NCBI GenBank assembly: GCA_029959195.1
Contig: CP114119.1
Location: 2,480,001 to 2,544,000, forward strand
Origin: Dictyophora rubrovolvata
Taxonomy: Eukaryota > Basidiomycota > Agaricomycetes > Phallales > Phallaceae
DNA: 64,000 bases
Direction of reading: 5' to 3'
Shown here: positions 49,318-64,000 of the stretch, piece after piece
Layout of the letters: every line of letters starts with the position of its first letter
Position numbering within the stretch: position 1 is the stretch's first letter
Notes under the pieces: generated by a model
What the model was told of the DNA's origin: nothing
The model's input: only the letters and a program-made list of their open reading frames with translations
The model's database searches: none
Program-made: the position numbers and the translations under genes

Positions 49318-50866
49318 GGATATTTCTTCCAGGGGGGGAAGGGTCTACTTTTTAAAGGTTTTGGCTCTCATGGGTGTCGGGAAAAAGCGGTGTCCAGAAA
49401 CAAGATTTTCAAGGTGGCCTCAGGTTTCTATTCACCCATAAAGGACAATCGTCCGTCGTCCACATTCTGTTGACGTCCAGGCGATAAAAAGGATGGGGCC
49501 GAATTATTTGACAGTGTATGTCCAATGATTTCCCTTCCCACGTGAGAACGAGATGACTCGCGTTCATTCTCTCGTGAAGCTGGATAAAACGACGAGACTT
49601 TGCGATTGAAAATCGGCACATTCTCCTCTGCGTCTGTCAAAAAAGTGTTCATAAATATAGGACCACAAGAACACACTAAGCATATAGAGTCAGAGACTGA
49701 AATCGAGTATTACTTCGATGCAGAACGACATGCAGTGGTTGTCGCTGACGTATCTTTGGGGAAAAGACAAGGTATGTTATGGTTTTTTCCGAGAAAAGAA
49801 CAAGTCAAGTGCTATCAGGTACTTAGTAAATACTCTTCCTGTTCATGGGGACAACAGAGCATTCGCAAATATCCGATGTCGGATGCAGTGCTGACCATCA
49901 CGGTAACAAGCGGACTTTCGCGAACTTCCGAAGATAAACACTGGAAAATAGTTAGTATACGTATATACGGTTTTGACAGAGTTATCTCGACTTGACGAAA
50001 AAGTACCGCGTACCTTGTAGACCAAGCGTAGTTGCTTACATTAGGCCTCGGCATTGGCCGGAAGCATTCTTTCAGGGTCCAAACGTCTTCGCTCGCGCGT
50101 TCAGTTTGGCCCAAGGCTCCAGAACTCACAAAAAACATCGCGGCCTGGGGAAACTATTCTTGATAACACAAGGAAACGCGGTAGACCGAAATGATCTAAG
50201 AAGGGATGGGTGTGAGTGTTACATCTTATCTCAGCGAAGTTTGAATTTACCTTGCAAATAGTTATTTGCTGAGCCAGTGACTACTATTCCAAAGATGAAT
50301 CATGATATTCTAATTAATATTTCTTGCTTCATTGTCGAAATATATGCCATCCGAGCTTCAACATATGGGTGGGATTAAATGTTGAACATTGACTGTCTGT
50401 CTTCGACAAATATGGTTCTGCTTTGCGCACATCATGATGCATGATCCATCACTCGGGTGCAGACAACTGCATTTAACTGCATTGACGACGTTCAATCATC
50501 GATCCATCAGGAATTCAGATGCATCTTGCAGAAGTGAAAAAAAATTTCTTTTCTTTTCTGTGGAGAAGCTTTAGTTTTGAAGTGTTTGAGTCTAGTAATC
50601 AATTGCATGGGATGTATCGCGTGCGGGTTTTGTTATAGGTAGGGTCTCTTGTTGATCCGTCCCATGCATCCGAGACGACACCGGAAGCCGTCTATGATCC
50701 ATCAGGATGGCTTATACAGGTGAGTAGTGGGATTTATGTACTTGAATACGCACTGTTTCAATACGTATTAAGGATAGTAGCGCCAATTATGCGTTCAACG
50801 TAGATTGGTGTGTAGCACCTCTTCCGTAAGTATTCGTCTTGTATCATTTAACGTCAAGGCATTGAT
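49318..50866. other. Intergenic region with a decayed repeated fragment
   Basis: No whole gene. On the minus strand at 49815-50138 a fragment reads ECFRPMPRPNVSN, which resembles KTFRPMLKSDVSN at about 53450. A possible lone exon reading SLVDPSHASETTPEAVYDPS lies at 50639-50719, bounded by tgttatag and gtgagt. I do not recognise it. Confidence 0.4.
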
Positions 50867-53035
50867 TCACCAATGGTAAGTCGTGGTAGCATATTTAATC
50901 CTGACCCCGATAGCTATCGCGACTTCTATCAAAACCATCGCAACCGTAAACCACCCTGCCGCTTGCATACCCCGTCTTCTATCGGCTGTAGGTAGACCAT
51001 TTGAAGCATTATTGTAGTCTGGGTCTACCATCGCCATTGCAATGCTCAACATGATGACGCCGGCGAGTATGAATATAGCAGAGCACACGGCGAACCCACG
51101 AACGAAGCGGCGTGCGACTATATCGCGGTCCATGTTGATTCCTTCAGAATCGACGATGATACCCATCCCACCAGCAGCAACGGCTGCAGAGACGAAAGTG
51201 GCCGCGGCCCAGGCAATCAGTACAATGTCACCACGGTCACCGCCAAAAACTTTACTCCATGCTACTGAAGCGCCTGAAAGGAACAGTCGATCACAACGTG
51301 CTATCGCCTAACAAAGGAAATCATACCGAAAAAAGCGACGGCACCCAGTGTTGCAAAATTGGTTCTATAACTAGCAGCACTACTCAGGCCAAAGGCCTCT
51401 GAATGGGCCTCTTCATACCGTTCTCTCTTGTGTGGACTGCTGAATGTGACTGGAGCTCCTCTGGATCCACGTCGCCCCATCCACTCACGAGCAGCGGTGT
51501 TGGAAGTTGCAGTTGCTCCACGGAGGGTTGCGCGACCTGAGCGTGCTGTTGATTCTTCCAAGGTTCCAGTGGTGAGTTGTCGTTCACCTATGACATTCTA
51601 GAAATTACGTGAGTACTTAGGCGAGACAGTCCAGAGAACAATAGGTGCACATCTTTAGCTATCTCAGCAACAGTTTCCAGGTTTTCGATCGCTGACTCTA
51701 TCCATGCGTGAATATCTTGTGCCCATTCATACTGGAGTCACGGACTCTTCAGGCGACATCATACTTAATGAATCTAGGATGACTCACCTCTCTGAGTTCC
51801 ATCTCAGTGCACTGGAAATCACTAAATACGCAAATTCTAAAGCAAAACTGACCATACAAACCTTGGTATCCCATGAGCAACCTGAAAATTCGGCGTTATT
51901 GGCCAGCTTCAGCTAAAAACGACGCCTAGTGTGATGTAATGGGGATGTGTGCCATTCATAGTACTTACAAATGCGTCCCATCGTGGTCTTTGCTCTTGCC
52001 AAAAGCTCTGAAGTTCCTCTATTCCAGCCAACAAATGATGGTCTAAGTGGATGAACTACGTTCTGTTGGATCATCATATCGAATTGAAGAAGGTTGAAAG
52101 GTTGTACGCACTGGTCGTAAAGCTTGTACACGCCGCTCCCATATGTCGTTGAGGTCCCTCTAGAATTCAAAGGTCAAAATTTAGTCTAGACGGTTCAAGC
52201 GCAAGCTTCACAAGTACACATATACAGACCTGATGAATCACATAGGTAAATATAGCTGGCCGTACGGTGAGTCTATCTTGGACTGTGGGGAATTCATGAG
52301 AGCTATATCATTGATTAGGGAGCGCTGAGACAGACCTAAAGTACATTCTCTCTCAGCGGCCAGCATGGCAAGGAACCCTTTGCGCTGCGCCTCCAATTTC
52401 CGGCGCTCGGACTTAAGAGAGCCCTCGTCGGGCTCAAACCTCACGTTCAATGAATCGTCTTGAATACCACTACTAGCCATTGGAGCAGACAGAGAGCGGT
52501 GCAAGGAAGACTGACGCTTGGTGAGCGTGGTTGGTGATGCATCAAGACTCGGAGGACCATTCACTTCTCCTTCGACAGATGAGGATATCGCGGCATGCGA
52601 TGAATGAACCGAAGGCGTAGCAGGCTGACTCAATACAAGTCAGGTAGAAACCTCCAAACTGCTGAGGTCCACTGACCTGAGTGTGGGTTGGTGGCGCATC
52701 AAGACTTAGAGTACTATCCTTCACTTCTCCTTCGGCAGATGGGGATGTGGCGGCATGCGATGAATGAATCGAAGGCGTAGCAGGCTGACTCAATACAAGT
52801 CAGGTAGAAACCTCCGAATTGCTGAGGTCCACTGACCTGAGTGTGGGTTAGTGGCGCATCAAGACTCAGAGTACTATCCTTCACTTCTCCTTCGACAGAC
52901 GGGGATGTGGCGGCATGTGATGAATGAATCGAAGGTGTAGCAGGCTTTCTCAATACAAGTCAGGTAGAAACCTCCAAACTGCTGAGGTCCACTAACCTGA
53001 GTGCAAGTTCCGAGATCTGTCTCGTCATTAGACAT
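50867..53035 (-). CDS. Membrane protein with tandemly duplicated 5' exons
   Basis: Unrecognised basidiomycete protein. Exon 1 (53035-52997) is MSNDETDLGTCTQ. Exons 2 and 3 (52944-52837, 52784-52677) each encode 36 near-identical residues (PATPSIHSSHAATSPS to THTQ), and exon 4 (52624-52336) begins with a third copy and runs on to SSLHRSLSAPMASS and RRKLEAQRKGFLAMLAAERE. Further exons give VQDRLTVRPAIFTYVIHQ, DHHLLAGIEELQSFWQEQ, EWAQDIHAWIESAIENL and then a Ser/Arg/Thr-rich stretch. The last part has four likely membrane segments (ATLGAVAFFG, IVLIAWAAATFVSAAVAA, GFAVCSAIFILAGVIML, GWFTVAMVLIEVAIAIGV) and ends YATTTYHW. All duplicated exons are phase 0-0. Exons between 52150 and 51600 are tentative. 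Confidence 0.62.
52625..53000 (-). repeat. 160 bp exon-intron tandem repeat
   Basis: The landmark caggct begins at 52621, 52781 and 52941, an exact 160 bp period. Each unit is a 108 nt exon plus a 52 nt intron. Copies differ at only a few positions, in the introns as well as the exons. The third exon copy is fused into a longer exon. Confidence 0.9.
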
Positions 53036-53224
53036 TGTTGAGTTACAGTCACGCTGTGACTAAGCGTCACTTGTAGACACGCGTCCATTCCCGTCAGTGT
53101 CCGACTCGTGTCAATACACCGAGTGAGGTACGTTCCTTTATTAGTTTAGATCAAAGCGGGTTCAGACTGAATTGGATTAAGCCACTGAAGATACATGGGA
53201 TAACGAATCATTACAGAGGGAAAA

Positions 53225-53360
53225 ATTGCCAGTATTCAGGCCTCCGGTCAGCTCGAATCGGCTGCACGCTTTAGGTAACAATATATATTCAGACGTCGCC
53301 GTCATGAGTAGCGAACTCAGCGATAAATAATAATTTTAGGCCAAGGAACAACACAAGTAT
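53225..53360. repeat. Dispersed repeat, copy A
   Basis: About 130 bp similar to 55785-55920, in the same orientation. Shared stretches include ccagtattc, tccggtcagctcg, tatatattcagacgtcgccg and gaacaacac. Differences are small substitutions and 1-6 base gaps. Confidence 0.8.
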
Positions 53361-53516
53361 ATTTGTGAACGAAAGAAAAATCATCATACTGCGTAGCTTG
53401 TAGTAGTCAATACCAAGCGTACTTCTCAAGTTGCTTACATCAGACTTCAGCATTGGCCGGAAGGTCTTTCTGACGCTTTCAAACATGAAGGTTTGAAGTT
53501 CAGCTGCACCGGCCAT
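53289..53516 (-). pseudogene. Fragment of an unknown membrane protein
   Basis: Open stretch ending FLSFTNILVLFLGLKLLF, a likely membrane segment, then a stop. KTFRPMLKSDVSN resembles ECFRPMPRPNVSN at about 50060, and its 3' half lies inside dispersed repeat A. Probably a remnant of a small duplicated gene; the parent is not in the window. Confidence 0.35.
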
Positions 53517-53958
53517 CCAAGAGATATCATCGATAGATTTGGTCAGAGGCCGTCAGCTAAACCAGAAGATTTTAGGGAATAGATGCCTTAATATTTCCTC
53601 TCGAAGATAAGGCCTTTGCGTATCAAAACCTCTAGCATACCTGGCGTGGTTCATAATCCGAATCAAATTCATCCATCATGTCGATGTTCGATGTCGTACT
53701 GCGACTAAATTCGAATCTCTAATTTTCTGCCGACGTGACTGCATTACACCCAATCCAAATTGTCAGGTTTGAGCGTGTCAGATCAGTTATCACGACCGTT
53801 CTGCACAGCTGCAGCACTGGCACCCGAATGATGCACTCACTCAATTAGTACTAGCTCGAAAATACGGATCTCTGGCCTAAATATTGAAAACCATATTAAC
53901 TTGAAAACGATATTGGGTTCAAACCATCTATGTTCTCCCGTTTTGACGGTTGCCCTCA

Positions 53959-55020
53959 GGGATGAATAGCACGAGCAGTAATAGCCCCTCGGTCTTGGAC
54001 AGTCTTATCCAGGAGATGTACTGGAAGTACGTATTTGATATTCATATCCAAATGTCAATGCTCATTTCCCGGATATTAGTTACGTCTCTAATGTGATTGA
54101 TAGTAGTATATTAGGTGAATTCATCTTTGCTAGGAAGAACATCAAAACTGAAGAAAAACTTAGCACTCCTTTTTTTATGTCACTGTGTTAAGGTTCTCAC
54201 AAGAAGTGGAGTTTATATGGCTCAAGCCTTTCCGTCTTTCGTCTTTGCTTTACATTTGCACGGGGTATGGCGGTTTGGCCCGTCAAGTATTTATATTGGC
54301 TGTTAAACCTGTACCAGGCTTTTGGTAATCATTTCTTCGTCTTGGAAGGCACATATGAAAGTGGACTTATTACTTTCTTTCTAGGCATAATAGCATTTAG
54401 TAGATGCTTTACAAGGTAACAAATCACAAATCCCTTGTCTTTATCCGATGATCTCATTATTCCATATTCGATAGCCTAAACGGTATATCTGCGCTTTACG
54501 GATAAAAAACCAGACAGCAATTTACATGATTTAGCCGAAGAAAGCACAGTTGCTCTCACCGCTAATGTCGCTACTATCTTTACCGACCTCCTCGTATTCG
54601 TTATCTGTATGTGGAAGATATGGGACGTGTGGAAATTGAAGCGTGAAACAGGTATCCAGAATAGCAATGGCCTTGTATCCTTACTCCTCAAACAGAGTGA
54701 GTTTTTATCAAGTCCTATGATAAGATTTAGTAAAAACTATTCCAAGGCTTGTTGAGGTGTTGGTGAGCACTTGATTTTGAAATTCTATATTGATGTTATC
54801 TCATTGAGCTGCAAGCTTTGTTGTTGTTACAACTGTCGTCCTTACAGTTATTGTCGAAATGAGTTATATCAAAACGTTAGCTTAGACCTTTTAATCAACG
54901 TCTTTCTAGGTCGAAAACGTATGCGCTGTTCAGTTGTTTATCCACTGGCATTTGTTTTTAACTCACCGCCTGACCAGCTTGTCGTAGCGAACATTTCAAG
55001 TGCCTTTCAAACTGGGTGAG
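53959..55020 (+). pseudogene. DUF6533-like gene, probably degenerate
   Basis: Starts MNSTSSNSPSVLDSLIQEMY. Family blocks appear in order: NYVSNVID, then FSQEVEFIWLKPFRLSSLLY with ICTGYGGLA (the DUF6533 core), LNGISALYG (position of the RVYALYGR motif), and ANVATIFTDLLVFVICMWKI followed by NSNGLVSLLLKQ. I could not join all blocks in one frame with plausible introns: the YDYLLT part before SQEVEF is missing, and the C-terminal SRLLLNLR block is not found. Either introns were missed or the copy is decaying. It is a distant relative of the gene at 45471-47560. Confidence 0.45.
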
Positions 55021-55784
55021 GTTGTTGAAACACAATTTGCTCACTCCCCAACAAGCATGTCGTACATTCTAGTCGCCAGTTTCACATTAGATCTTCGTCG
55101 ACACAACTCTCCTCGTGGAAATGGCGATGCCCGAGGCAGAAGATGGCAATGAGGGGACAGCTTGGAACTTGAACCAGCCTCAGGCAGGCTGATTCCGCTG
55201 AAAATACTGTGCCGTTGGGGTTCATACAAAAACCTGCCAAATTGGCTGGTCATTTCAATACTTATTTATACTGTACTTAGAAAAATCTCGAAAACTTCAC
55301 GAAGGTCTTCGATTAGGTTTGAACACTAGCACAGATGTCGTCTTTTACAGAATCATGCCCAGATGTTATTATCGCGTATGTATGATGCTGTTGCGTGGTG
55401 GTAGGTCCGGTCCGGTTTGGAACCAGTTTGGGGACTGGACTGGAACTGAGATCGTTCAGAATATCTAGCTGATTTGACTGAAGCCAAATCATAGTAATTC
55501 ATAGAATTTCGGGCGTCGCCGGTCCCAATACGAAGCAAAACAGGCAGTCTTATTATTAGGATCGTTTCGCAGCCTTGTAGCCTTTTTATTCCCGTTTGCA
55601 AACGACTATAATTAGATGGTTTACAGATTTAAAGAGGGGGAAAGAAAACTATCTCAGGGGGAAAGACTGAATTTGGGGATTAGAAACTGTCAATCATCGG
55701 TTTCAGACTAAACCGAACTAAGCCAAACTAAACATACACGAGATTCAAATTTTTGCAACGAATCATTGCAGGGGAACATTTTTA

Positions 55785-55920
55785 CCAGTATTCGGGCTTC
55801 CGGTCAGCTCGTCGGTTGCACGCTTTGGGTAACAGTATATATTCAGACGTCGCCGTTATGAGTAATAGCGAACCTAGCGATAAATAATTAATTTTCGGCT
55901 GAGGAACAACACGAGACATC
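55785..55920. repeat. Dispersed repeat, copy B
   Basis: Second copy of the repeat at 53225-53360. The open frame seen across copy A is not kept. Confidence 0.8.
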
Positions 55921-56166
55921 TGTGAAAGCTACGACATTGACACTATTAATCCAGTTTTGGCATACAAGAACCAATGGATATTAATGACAAGGACCATCGT
56001 CCAATAAAAGAAGAGCGGAATTCAACTTGTTAAGCTGAGAATGTGCATATCGTTATGGAAAATGAGAGGGTAGTGAGAGAGGGACTGTTTGTTGGTTAAT
56101 CTGAGTAGTCGAGATGATCTTTACGCTGTTCACGCCATCATTACTTCCGTGTTAAAATGAGTCATG

Positions 56167-56316
56167 GATTATGACAGTCGATGGCTTTACCCATGCCTCC
56201 GTACCTTAGGGCCCCATCGACATCCATCTTATTCACCATCGATTATGACAGCTGATGGCTTCACCCATGCCTTCGTACCTTGGGGTCTCATCGATATCCA
56301 TTCCTTATTCACCATT
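56167..56316. repeat. 74 bp direct tandem duplication
   Basis: gattatgacag starts at 56167 and again at 56241. The two units share gatggct, acccatgcc, cgtacctt and ttattcacca and differ at roughly one base in eight. Confidence 0.85.
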
Positions 56317-57546: not shown

Positions 57547-58881
57547 ATGTCTAACATCGTGAGACCCTCGGCTGCATCTTTCAGGAGAGCAGGATGGATC
57601 GCTGCTAACAAGAAATCCCTGCTCGGCTACATCAATTCATTGCTCACCACGTTCACCAGACATCGTGATGCAGGAGAAGAGCTACTTCCTCCTGTTAGAA
57701 AATTCAAAGAATTCATTGAAAAGGACCCCGTTGTCTTCACGGATTTTGTTAGAATGTTCGAACGAGCAACTGAAAGCGTATGGCGTCTCCCTGACTAACC
57801 CTCGTAAATTTTTGAGTACCCCTTCTCTAGCCCAAGAACTATCAAGAACTGATCGTACTATTCAATGAAATATTCCGTCAAGCACCCGTTTTCGGCACCT
57901 TGGGGCCCCCTGTATACATGATTATGGCACAAAATATGAACACGCAGGGCGGATTCTCCGCTTACACCAAAGAGGTTGTCAATCATCATTTCAAGAAGAT
58001 GTTTGAGACTTGGGTTCTTTACCTCAATTCCAAAGATTCTCGCAGCGTCCTCAACTCTGGGAACGATGGATGGCTTAGCACTGCTGCCTTTAATGCCCTG
58101 ATGGCGGAATACGACGGTCGCACGTTCGTGCAAGTCTTTATTTGCAATCCCGAAGAAGAGTACTATGGTTTTATATCCTTCGAGGACTTCTTTAACCGCC
58201 GTTACCGGTCGCCTGAAATTGATCGCCCCACAGGTCCTATTGGTGACTTGCGCCTCATCAGCGCTCCCTGTGAATCCAATACATATGCGTACCAGCAAAA
58301 CGTTCAGCTGGTTGATGAGCTTTTCATTAAGGACGAGAGGTACTCCCTTTTGCACCTGCTCGCCGACGACCCTTACACATCAGAATTCATCGGCGGGAGC
58401 GTGCTCCAATCATTCCTTAACACCACGGGGTACCACCGCTGGCACGCTCCGGTCAATGGGGTCGTCAAGAAGATTGTTACTGTCCCAGGGACCTACTTCA
58501 CTCAAGCACCCCGACACCCTTGACTCTGTAATCCCGCCTCCGGAATCTGACGAGCTCCCTCCTTACCTGAAATCACTCAGGTTCTTCGCCAATACCAATA
58601 CTCGCATGCTTATCTTCATCGACGCTGACAACACCAACGTCGGCCTTGTTTGCTTCATCGCCATCGGAATGACCGAAATTTCCAGTTGTGAAGCCACCGT
58701 TTATGAAGGACAACACGTCGTGCGAGGAGATGAGTTGGGCATGTTCCACTTTGGTGGATCTTCTTCTGCCCTTGTTTTCCGTGCTGCTGCAAATGTTGTT
58801 GTCGAGCCCAAATATACACTACCCGGCGCCGTGCTCAAAATTAACAGTATCATCGCTGGTGCACCTCTCGCCTCCTGCTAG
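57547..58881 (+). CDS. PsiD-like (PSD-family) decarboxylase, copy 1, frame interrupted
   Basis: Relative of the PLP-independent tryptophan decarboxylase PsiD, itself a soluble offshoot of phosphatidylserine decarboxylase. Exon 1 (57547-57777) has FKEFIEKDPVVFTDFVRMFE; a 53 nt intron leads to exon 2 from 57831. Motifs in PsiD order: PKNYQELIVLFNEIF, APVFGTLGPPVYMIMAQ, GGFSAYTKEVVNHHFKKMF, YYGFISFEDFFNRRYRSPEI, SAPCESNTYAYQ, GYHRWHAPVNGVVKKI, then EATVYEGQHVVRGDELGMFH. The self-cleavage serine motif FGGSSSAL is present. The frame changes at a run of four C (58509-58512); copy 2 has three C there and stays in frame. This may be a true one-base insertion or an assembly error. If intact, the product would be a cytosolic aromatic amino acid decarboxylase of about 430 residues with a pyruvoyl group. 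No psilocybin-pathway genes lie nearby. Confidence 0.8.
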
Positions 58882-60298: not shown

Positions 60299-61648
60299 AT
60301 GTCTGCGGCTACAAAGCCTTCAGCCTACCCTTTCGAAAGTGCAGCTGGCGAGGCAGCTATGTCCGACTACATACGAAGATTAGTTGTTCAAGCCCACCAA
60401 CATTACCATCAAGGGCGGGCACTTCTTCCCGAGGTTCAAGCCTTCAAAGAATTTATCGAGCATAATCCCATTGTCTTCACCGAGTTTGTCAGTATGTTTG
60501 AAGGAGCGACTGAACCCGTATGTTCTTCTTTTTGTTCAAAAATCAGGTTTCTGTCATGTCTGAATATCCCCTCTCCGTTTTAAGCCCCGGAATTATGTTG
60601 AACTTGTTTGGATGTTTGACGAAGTATTCCGCGAAGCACCGACTTTCAGTACTCTGAATACCCCTGTTTACAAAGTCATCGCACGAAGTGTCAACACGCG
60701 CAGTGGATTCTCCGCCTACACGGGAGAAAATGTCAACCAGCATTTAAAAAAGATGTTCGACGCTTGGGCCTTACACCTCACTTTGCCAGACTCCCGTAGT
60801 GTGCTCACCGGCTCGGATGAACGTGGAGGTGGATGGTTCAGTACCGCCACGTTGGATGCTCTGATGGCGGAATACGACGACCGCACATTCGAGTAAGTGT
60901 TTGTTTGTAATCCCAAAGAACCCTCCTATGGTTTTAATTCCTTCGAAGATTTTTTCACCCGCCGATACAGGTCGCCCGAAATTGATCGACCCACAGGACC
61001 GATTGATGACTTGAGTCTCATCGGTGCCCCATGCGAAACAACCACATGTGCGTACCAAACGAATATGCAGCTAGTCGATGAACTTTTCATCAAAGACCAG
61101 AAATATTCCCTTATACACTTGCTAGGCAATGATCCCAATACCAAGGAATTCATAGGCGGGAGTATCCTCCAAGGGCTTCTTCGTATCACAGGATACCACC
61201 GCTGGCACCCTCCGGTCAATGGAGTGATAAAGAAAATTTTTAGTGTTCCAGGAGCATACTTCGCTCAAGCACCCAGCACCCTTAACACTTCACTCCCTTC
61301 TTCTGAATCCGATGAACCCTTTCCCTACTTCAAGTCGCTCACGTACATCGCTAATACCTCCACTCGCCAGCTTTTCTTCATAGAAGCTGACAACGCTGAA
61401 ATAGATCTCATTTACTTCATCGCTATTGGAATGTGCGAAGTCTCAAGCTGGCAAGCTACGGTTTATGAAGGACAACACGTTGTGCGAGGCGATGAGTTGG
61501 GTATGTTCCATTTTGTGGATCCTCCTCTGCCCTTGTTTTTCGTGCTGCTGCAAATGTTGTTGTTGAACCCAGGTACACAATTCCCGGCGCCGTCGTTAGA
61601 ATCAACAGTGTCATCGCTGGTGTACCTCTATCTCTATCCTCTTCCTAG
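60299..61648 (+). pseudogene. PsiD-like decarboxylase, copy 2, disrupted
   Basis: Tandem paralog of the gene at 57547. Exon 1 reads FKEFIEHNPIVFTEFVSMFE up to about 60518, an intron ends in ttttaag at about 60582, then PRNYVELVWMFDEVFREAP and SGFSAYTGENVNQHLKKMFD. The frame has TAA directly after DDRTFE at 60894, where copy 1 reads FVQVFIC. Downstream similarity goes on (YGFNSFEDFFTRRYRSPEI, GYHRWHPPVNGVIKKI, AQAPSTLNTSLPSSE, YEGQHVVRGDELGMFH). A base is missing at the maturation motif: MFHFGGSS of copy 1 becomes MFHFVDPP here, and the family C-terminus then runs in another frame to a TAG at 61646-61648. With two independent breaks this copy is most likely a pseudogene. Homologous coding text continues through the stop, which argues against an intron. 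Confidence 0.8.
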
Positions 61649-64000
61649 TGAAGTACTGTGGCGAAATTGTTGGGAAAGGAAGCCCTTATGTTGACGTCTC
61701 GATTGCATCTCTATTTTCTTGTACACCTGCCCGTCTCATGTATGTAGCTTCCCCTTCGTTGCGGATTTGTCATGTAATACACACGAGGGCTATTACAACT
61801 TGTAAACCCGGTCAAAGAGTAATTATCCAGTCTTACTGATTTTTTCCTCGTGTGATATCTCGTCCCTCACTTCTTTTTCTATCAATAAGGCTGTTTTAAA
61901 GTTTATGAGATAATGTCTTTAAGGGAAAAAGGCTGTGCCGTCGTAGATTTAATATTCAGAACTGGATACTAACTCCTTCAAGATCCCCTTTTTTGTTTGA
62001 TCCTGCCACAATTCTTGTCAGACTCAGAGTATAAATATAAATGCTCAAGTGTTGGAGGATTTACAATAATTCCTTCCCCTCAGCTTCAGTTTTACTTTCG
62101 GATTTTGAGGTATTGGAACATTTTGTGGGCCCTTCGGGGACATACACAGAGCTTCACACGATGTCATGCTCCAAATGATGCTTCCCTTTCATGAAAAGTA
62201 TGAACAAATGGTGTGAAAATAAATGCTGACTGGTCTGAATCATTATATGTAGAAGTCATTTGGCAAGTCTTCCGATATATATCCAGTTGTGTCAGCTTTG
62301 GCACCAGACGTACGTACGTCGTATGACTTGTATCATTATCATCGTCTGTCAGCCAGCGATAAGTCGACCCCCATCCCGATACCGAATGCCACTGAGTTAA
62401 ACAGAGTTTGTAGCCCTCCCCTTTGACCCTTCTTGGATGCCAACATTAATAGCTAAACTTGGAGGATTTATCCCATTCTTTCGGATGCAGGTTTCATCGC
62501 CTTATTTCCGATTTGTGTATTGCATCAGACCATATACTTTATGAATGTGTGTGGTTCGAGAATAAGAATATGCCAGGACTTGTGCTCTACTTAAACAAGA
62601 CAGTGACAAAAGCATTTCTTCTGGTGGAAACTTCTCTATTGGTCCGGTTTTATCATTAAATGCAATCTCACACGGAAGGGAATATATTCCCATCAAACTA
62701 GCTTAAATAGATAGATGGTTCGAGTTACACCACAGAATCTATTTACATGGCTCCACAAAAAAAAAAAGAAAAAAAAGAAATAAACAAGACAGTGACTGGG
62801 TTTGAATACCGTTTGAGAACGTGCAAAACAGGCACCATGAACGATGATTGATGGATTCAGAGAAAAAACTAACTGAACGACTGACACCTTCAGTGTCGAT
62901 GTTATATTTCTTGTGCTGGCAAACTTCGGTTACCTGAATCACGTCCTTGTCCGAAGTTAGCAGATCTTCTCCAAGACTCGGAGTCGGAGCTTGAACATCG
63001 ATTATCTTTGCACGACGAGTCACTAAACGCATCGTCTTTTGCTAGGAGAGGTGTTATATCGGTTCTTTTCGCATAATGCAACACTTTTTGCTCATTCAGG
63101 TCCTCTAGCCTTGCTAATCGAGTCCTGGCTTTGAGCGCGCAGAGTTCTAACATGCCCCACGAACCACTGGGGCCCGGGATGCTTGTTTATCTTCCAGCTT
63201 CAGGCGTATGTCTTACATCTAATCTTTCTGCATATTATATTATACCCACTATTTCTACGACACATCCTATGGAATTCTTGCAGTGTTACCCGAATACAAA
63301 TGATTGCGCTGGAAACTCGATAGTATAGTACCCTCTTGAAATATACGAATCCGGCGCTGGCGAAGCAATAAATTTCAAAGAACATGGAGCGGAGCGGATG
63401 TCTGCTTTTAAGACCTGGCTGAAAGAAAGTCAGGCTGCAGGATTGACTCGGTCTCTTGAACAACAGGATGTGCGGCGGGACACAACGATATTATGGCACA
63501 CAGGAGGGACTGAGTCGTGGGTTTATTTGTATCAACTTTGCAGTATGTCTCTACCTTCCCGCTTATCGTAATTCTACTCATTTTACTGTGTGGAGGTAGT
63601 CTTGAATATAGCTTGGACAAGCCACGGATGGGCGTTGTGTCATCGTCGTGGTTGCTACTTCTTGGGTTTTGGAATTTGACAATTTAGGCTACAAGAGCAA
63701 GGTCTTTTCCGTAATAGGTCAGCAGCTGTATATTGTACGCAGGGTTTTATTCGTGTCTTCTCGTTTTAAGTAATGTTCGTTCAAGTGCTGTCGAAGCAAA
63801 GTGGATTATTTACCCTCATACCACTATACCATCAAACTCCTCTACACATCTTTCTCACGTTGGGTCGCATGCAAACAAACCTCTTTTCGTTTCTACTCCC
63901 TTCCGAAGTTCTGTAACTCGTTTGTATCACTTTTAACTCGGATTTAGTAATCTTCGGAGTCCCGTCGAGGGGCGACATCTCCGGCTGTACCGCCCCAACC
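61649..64000. other. Gene-poor right end
   Basis: Mostly short open stretches with no recognised product and poly-A/T runs (62758-62780). The only candidate exon is at 63329-63571. No transposon ends are recognised. Confidence 0.45.
63329..63571 (+). other. Candidate exon of an unknown gene
   Basis: Starting after the acceptor-like gatagtatag, the frame reads YPLEIYESGAGEAINFKEHG, then ERMSAFKTWLKESQAAGL and TTILWHTGGTESWVYLYQLC, to a TAA at 63569-63571. The composition looks protein-like, and an upstream short exon MPHEPLGPGMLVYLPASG with a following gt (63152-63207) could belong to it. No family is recognised. Confidence 0.3.

Follow-up and report, generated by a model that had tools for sequence, protein, structure and literature searches.

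A tandem array of 160-bp units, each with a complete intron, at the 5' side of a putative membrane-protein gene in Dictyophora rubrovolvata

The host gene and its surroundings

The DNA analyzed (the window) was a stretch of 64,000 nucleotides from contig CP114119.1 of Dictyophora rubrovolvata, positions 2,480,001 to 2,544,000. Its introns are short and its genes closely packed, as would be expected of a fungus, probably a basidiomycete. The gene of interest was predicted on the minus strand, with the ATG at 53035 and the stop ending at 50867 (Table 1). The joint between exons 10 and 11 was the least certain part of the model.

The predicted protein contained hydrophobic stretches at residues ~392–419, 429–464 and 479–507, all in its C-terminal part. 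The mean hydropathy of the 19-residue stretches there was above 1.5, as in membrane proteins. This was in agreement with the first-pass annotation, which had called the locus a membrane-protein gene, and a membrane protein is a fair guess for the product. No Pfam family was found above the cut-off for the protein. The best match (E = 0.26) scored 11.4 bits, where the cut-off is 25, and was rejected as a family assignment because a score so far under the cut-off was attributed to chance.

The 28.2-Mb genome, in 11 contigs, was searched for related sequences. No paralogue in the single-copy state was found, all 10 protein matches (E up to 10) being to the host locus itself. The 36-residue repeat unit described below was not found elsewhere in the genome either, all three matches being to the array.

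There were 14 long open reading frames; one that overlapped was dropped, and the other 13 served to train a codon-usage test. The predicted frame was the best of the three on its strand in all 12 exons, and the best of all six in nine of them. The exceptions were exons 7, 8 and 11, in which a reverse frame scored higher. Among random 108-mers from the window, only 2.6–4.5% did as well as the repeat exons. The test penalizes stops and the model was picked on open frames, so these results were not independent of the gene model.

Directly upstream of the gene, at window positions 53289–53552 on the minus strand, lay another open frame that held a hydrophobic stretch and for which a Pfam search at E up to 1 gave nothing. 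This frame may be the last part of a second membrane-protein gene. Farther away, on the plus strand, two open frames (window 57831–58523 and 60897–61694) had similar translations and appear to be tandem gene duplicates. On inspection, their translations resemble phosphatidylserine decarboxylase-like proteins.

Table 1. Predicted host gene and the parts of its 5' region that make up the array (window positions)
Feature	Position	Strand	Description
Host gene	50867..53035	-	12 exons, 512 codons + stop; splice model built by hand on open frames
Exon 1	52997..53035	-	39 nt, MSNDETDLGTCTQ; last 7 nt CACTCAG (52997-53003) = start of repeated segment
Intron 1	52945..52996	-	52 nt, GTTAGT...CTGAC...AAAG; unusual acceptor
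Repeat exon a	52837..52944	-	108 nt, phase 0-0, 36 aa
Intron 2	52785..52836	-	52 nt, GTCAGT...CTGAC...TCAG
Repeat exon b	52677..52784	-	108 nt, phase 0-0, 36 aa
Intron 3	52625..52676	-	52 nt, GTCAGT...CTGAC...TCAG
Repeat copy c	52529..52624	-	diverged and 3 nt shorter through a deletion; forms the start of exon 4
Exon 4	52336..52624	-	289 nt, phase 0-1; copy c first, unique coding sequence after

Extent and anatomy of the array

Tandem Repeats Finder (TRF) reported one long-period array, at 52539–53003, with a period of 160, 2.9 copies, 91% matches and a score of 783. It lay close to the 5' end of the predicted host gene, on the minus strand, and its three diverged copies were spaced at 160 nt. 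In 20 single-base shuffles of 6 kb (window 50001–56000), the best TRF score was 44. This indicated that the array was not a product of chance. It was also the only array with a period of at least 100 in the 202 kb scanned, which covered the window and its neighbours (264,000 bases less 62,000 N).

Two other tandem repeats were seen. The first, at window 56163–56315, had a period of 74, two copies and 86% matches. A stop occurred in each of the six frames within the surrounding 300 bases, and one plus-strand frame was open across the repeat itself. The second, outside the window (G000:C3:2624366-2624592), was a 36-bp repeat with 6.1 copies and 94% matches. It is possibly coding, since 36 is divisible by three.

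The array and its limits, together with the splice signals, the phases and the open frames, were read directly from the DNA. The repeat unit consisted of the last 7 nt of exon 1, a 52-nt intron and approximately the first 100 nt of a long exon. A complete intron and its flanking exon ends were thus contained in the unit, and the same whole 52-nt intron was present in all three units. All three introns showed a donor of the form GTYAGT, a branch-like CTGAC and a terminal AG; the acceptor was AAAG in intron 1 and TCAG in introns 2 and 3. Repeat exons a and b were rich in Ser, Thr and Pro, and each contained one TP and one SP site. Copy c had no donor at the end of the unit, and ran on into the unique coding part of exon 4.

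The first-pass annotation had described three 160-bp units head to tail at 52625–53035. The array does contain 2.9 copies, and the gene lies on the minus strand. Within this interval, however, are three introns and no more than two copies of the exon; the third falls outside it. The statement that every exon was of phase 0-0 was correct for exons a and b, but not for exon 4, which bears copy c. Likewise, the 36-residue unit (PATPS to THTQ) was seen in copies a and b but not in copy c. On the other hand, the proposal that each added copy contributes 36 residues without a frame shift fits exons a and b, which are both 108 nt long and of phase 0-0.

The likeness between the copies ended beyond both ends of the array. 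The sequence after copy c was compared with the intron, and the sequence before the exon-1 tail with the end of exon b; the observed scores were reached by 3101, 2734 and 4597 of 5000 shuffles. The letters GTCAGT, with which introns 2 and 3 begin, occurred in exon 4 shortly after copy c. An extension of the repeat past copy c on this ground was rejected, as the local alignment was no better than those of the shuffles. Strictly speaking, a donor may have been lost after copy c, although the GTCAGT carries no weight above chance.

Because the likeness stopped beyond both ends, the duplicated segment was taken to be the exon-1 tail, the intron and the first ~100 nt of the long exon. Exons a and b seem to be chimeras, in which the head of the long exon is joined to the tail of exon 1 and its donor. 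The duplication had been thought to involve a whole exon, but this did not fit the third copy, which has no donor where the unit stops and is continuous with the rest of the 289-nt exon, with sequence unlike the intron following it; the form of the ancestor is presumed from these features. The letters CTCA were common to the exon-1 tail and the exon-4 sequence at the point where the two meet. The letters are few, and offer only a suggestion of microhomology that might have been used in the duplication.

Divergence and origin of the copies

Introns 1 and 2 differed at five of the 52 sites, introns 1 and 3 at three, and introns 2 and 3 at two (4–10%). Exons a and b differed at 6 of 108 sites, and four of these differences were silent third-position changes (dS about 0.15, dN 0.026). 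Units a and b as wholes therefore differed at 11 of 160 sites, 6 in the exon and 5 in the intron. Copy c was more distant, with 13 differences from a and 11 from b over 95 aligned sites, and the sole indel in the aligned part was 3 nt long.

Over the first 66 nt, the comparison of a with c gave a dS of 0.26 and a dN of 0.089. In the comparison of b with c over the same length, dN (0.113) was above dS (0.057), so that coding constraint was not seen in that pair. As the a/c and b/c rates disagreed, the copies tell no one simple story.

On these figures the copies are moderately diverged, and not very recent. The copies had been said to look recent, which is doubtful with a dS of 0.15 between exons a and b and introns that differ by 4–10%. 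'Nearly identical', the other term applied to them, was appropriate for exons a and b and for the introns, but less so for the third exon copy.

The 5' part of the middle unit was more like the downstream copy, and its 3' part more like the upstream copy. There were 20 variable sites, of which the four where a equals c were omitted, and the other 16 were fitted to one breakpoint. Thirteen of these 16 informative sites followed the pattern (shuffle p = 0.049). Unequal crossing-over between two earlier copies predicts such a middle unit, and the pattern gives this mechanism weak support.

We interpreted the array as very probably the result of a tandem duplication of about 160 bp straddling intron 1, followed by the addition of a third copy, with 36 residues added per copy. 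The segment copied would have comprised the 7-nt tail of exon 1 and its donor, the 52-nt intron and about the first 100 nt of the next, long exon, and the second copy would have been placed head to tail with the first. The third copy would have come from a later unequal exchange (or slippage). Each extra copy would bring a complete intron and a chimeric 108-nt exon. Each would also add 36 Ser/Thr/Pro-rich residues to the N-terminal region, with the rest of the protein undisturbed. The outcome was probably two extra introns and 72 amino acids.

We infer a single-copy ancestor here, and gain rather than loss as the direction of change. We likewise infer transcription and splicing as modelled, the order of the events, the mechanism of copying and the effect on the protein.

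The frame is kept at 36 added residues per copy because the old intron has phase-0 junctions on both sides and the coding part that was copied is divisible by three in length. Of duplications of random length, one in three would keep the frame. No special cause is therefore needed, beyond selection against the rest. The earlier suggestion that the protein was lengthened and introns were gained in one step could be retained in part: tandem DNA duplication best explains the added introns and codons without a change of frame, but the gain would be the copying of an intron that already existed.

We also considered that the repeats might be a minisatellite-like array in a transcribed 5' untranslated part of the gene, with translation starting downstream and the open frames accidental. 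This would suit repeats that are Ser/Thr/Pro-rich and fast-changing, and in which the amino-acid-changing rate exceeds the silent rate between b and c over 66 nt. In addition, 3.6–4.5% of random 108-mers from the window scored as well in the codon-usage test as copies a and b. On the other hand, three in-frame open copies were joined to the ATG exon and to a long open exon, and the predicted frame won on its strand in every exon. The silent third-position changes that make up four of the six differences between exons a and b, and the sole indel of 3 nt, also argued for coding sequence. We give the untranslated array only a small chance of being correct.

Similar copies could also be produced by an assembly artefact, in which two haplotypes, or one unit, were stitched in tandem. 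An assembly error is very unlikely because the copies differ: units a and b do so at the 11 sites mentioned, and the third differs more and carries an indel. Three diverged copies at 160-nt spacing are unlike a simple expansion error.

Repeated insertion of a mobile intron (introner-like elements have been reported in fungi; PMC4457414), suggested by three near-identical introns in one gene, was rejected as having a negligible probability, since flanking exon sequence had been copied along with the introns and near-identical introns were not found in other genes: a search of the 28.2-Mb genome with the 41-nt intron core, allowing up to 3 mismatches, gave three matches, all inside the array, which fits local duplication.

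Known systems and predicted splicing outcomes

The closest precedent is CNN00420 of Cryptococcus neoformans, which contains an array of the same anatomy (Sharpton et al. 2008, PMC2395259). As described in that report, repeats of ~107 nt hold exon ends and a full-length intron, and their expansion adds introns. The introns within the gene are near-identical, introns 3, 4 and 5 being identical, and the number of repeats differs between strains, as the first-pass annotation suggested might be true of the present array. Unequal crossing-over, conversion or slippage was proposed by its authors.

The array described here was of this kind: its unit held a complete intron and exon ends, and its introns were near-identical and not found elsewhere in the genome. 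It differed from CNN00420 in having a longer unit (160 versus ~107 nt) and introns that are less alike (PMC2395259). In CNN00420, splicing, intron gain and strain differences were backed by ESTs, orthologues and resequencing (PMC2395259), whereas the present array was read from one genome sequence.

In a potato RdRp gene (PMC4974935), an intron was gained by a tandem duplication that also crosses the boundary between intron 1 and exon 2, and most of the splicing signals were reported to be inherited from the parental intron. The new donor in potato arose from a formerly exonic segment, whereas in the present array it is the old donor that was duplicated, together with the tail of exon 1. Tandem exon duplication, which is reported to be abundant in eukaryotic genomes (PMC9013439), likewise gives exon copies in tandem that are potentially alternatively spliced. 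The copies in that report are exons, whereas the piece copied here seems to comprise a portion of a long exon, an intron and 7 nt of the preceding exon.

In the AGGT model of tandem genomic duplication and the fission yeast cases (PMC3443670, PMC3629103), duplication likewise raises the number of introns. In these, however, exonic or cryptic sites become the new splice sites, whereas here an existing intron was copied whole. The AGGT exonic duplication model was rejected for the present array, as one and the same 52-nt intron is present in full in each unit. One review does not count simple duplications of existing introns in its table of gains (PMC3443670). In duplicated human genes, internal tandem repeats are described as lengthening exons or, at exon-intron boundaries, altering splicing (PMC2812944). 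The mean unit there is 30 bp and cryptic sites give rise to the new introns, unlike in the present array.

We regard the array as an ordinary further case of a gene change already described in a yeast. It is one more fungal example and leaves the general picture unchanged. It is a clear case of how DNA copied across an intron would lengthen a protein, raise the number of introns at once and make chimeric exons.

The consequences of splicing errors or choices within the array were predicted from the gene model. Skipping of exon a, or of a and b together, kept the frame. Retention of intron 1, 2 or 3 alone led to an early stop, after 53, 89 or 129 codons, respectively.

The AAAG acceptor of intron 1 is possibly weak or poorly used. 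As a rule, an acceptor that ends in AAG is weaker than one that ends in CAG or TAG. In a first, coarse scan of the 202 kb (unmasked), 65 intron-like segments were found, which ended in TAG (31), AAG (16), CAG (14) or GAG (4). With five control donors, AAG was found 11–19 times and TAG 8–16 times; with two control branch motifs, AAG was found 11 and 18 times, and TAG 8 and 11 times. Compared with these controls, TAG was enriched and AAG was not, as far as so coarse a test can tell.

A second scan of the 202 kb, which took coding flanks into account and was not sharp, gave 17 segments at the strictest threshold, with AAG in 4, versus 0–4 in four controls. Behind GTYAGT, the class to which the donors of the array belong, five segments remained at this threshold (CAG 4, TAG 1, AAG 0), and eight at the looser thresholds (AAG 2). 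Enrichment of AAG behind strong donors was thus seen in neither scan.

The upstream donor might often be joined to the TCAG acceptor that precedes exon b or copy c, which would make the repeats a frame-neutral cassette array that sets the length of the N-terminal region; we consider this rather unlikely. Were it true, splicing, in addition to copy number, would determine whether one, two or three repeats of ~36 residues are present. Should intron 1 be poorly spliced to exon a, its donor may pair with a TCAG farther on, which would shorten the protein by 36 or 72 residues without a shift of frame.
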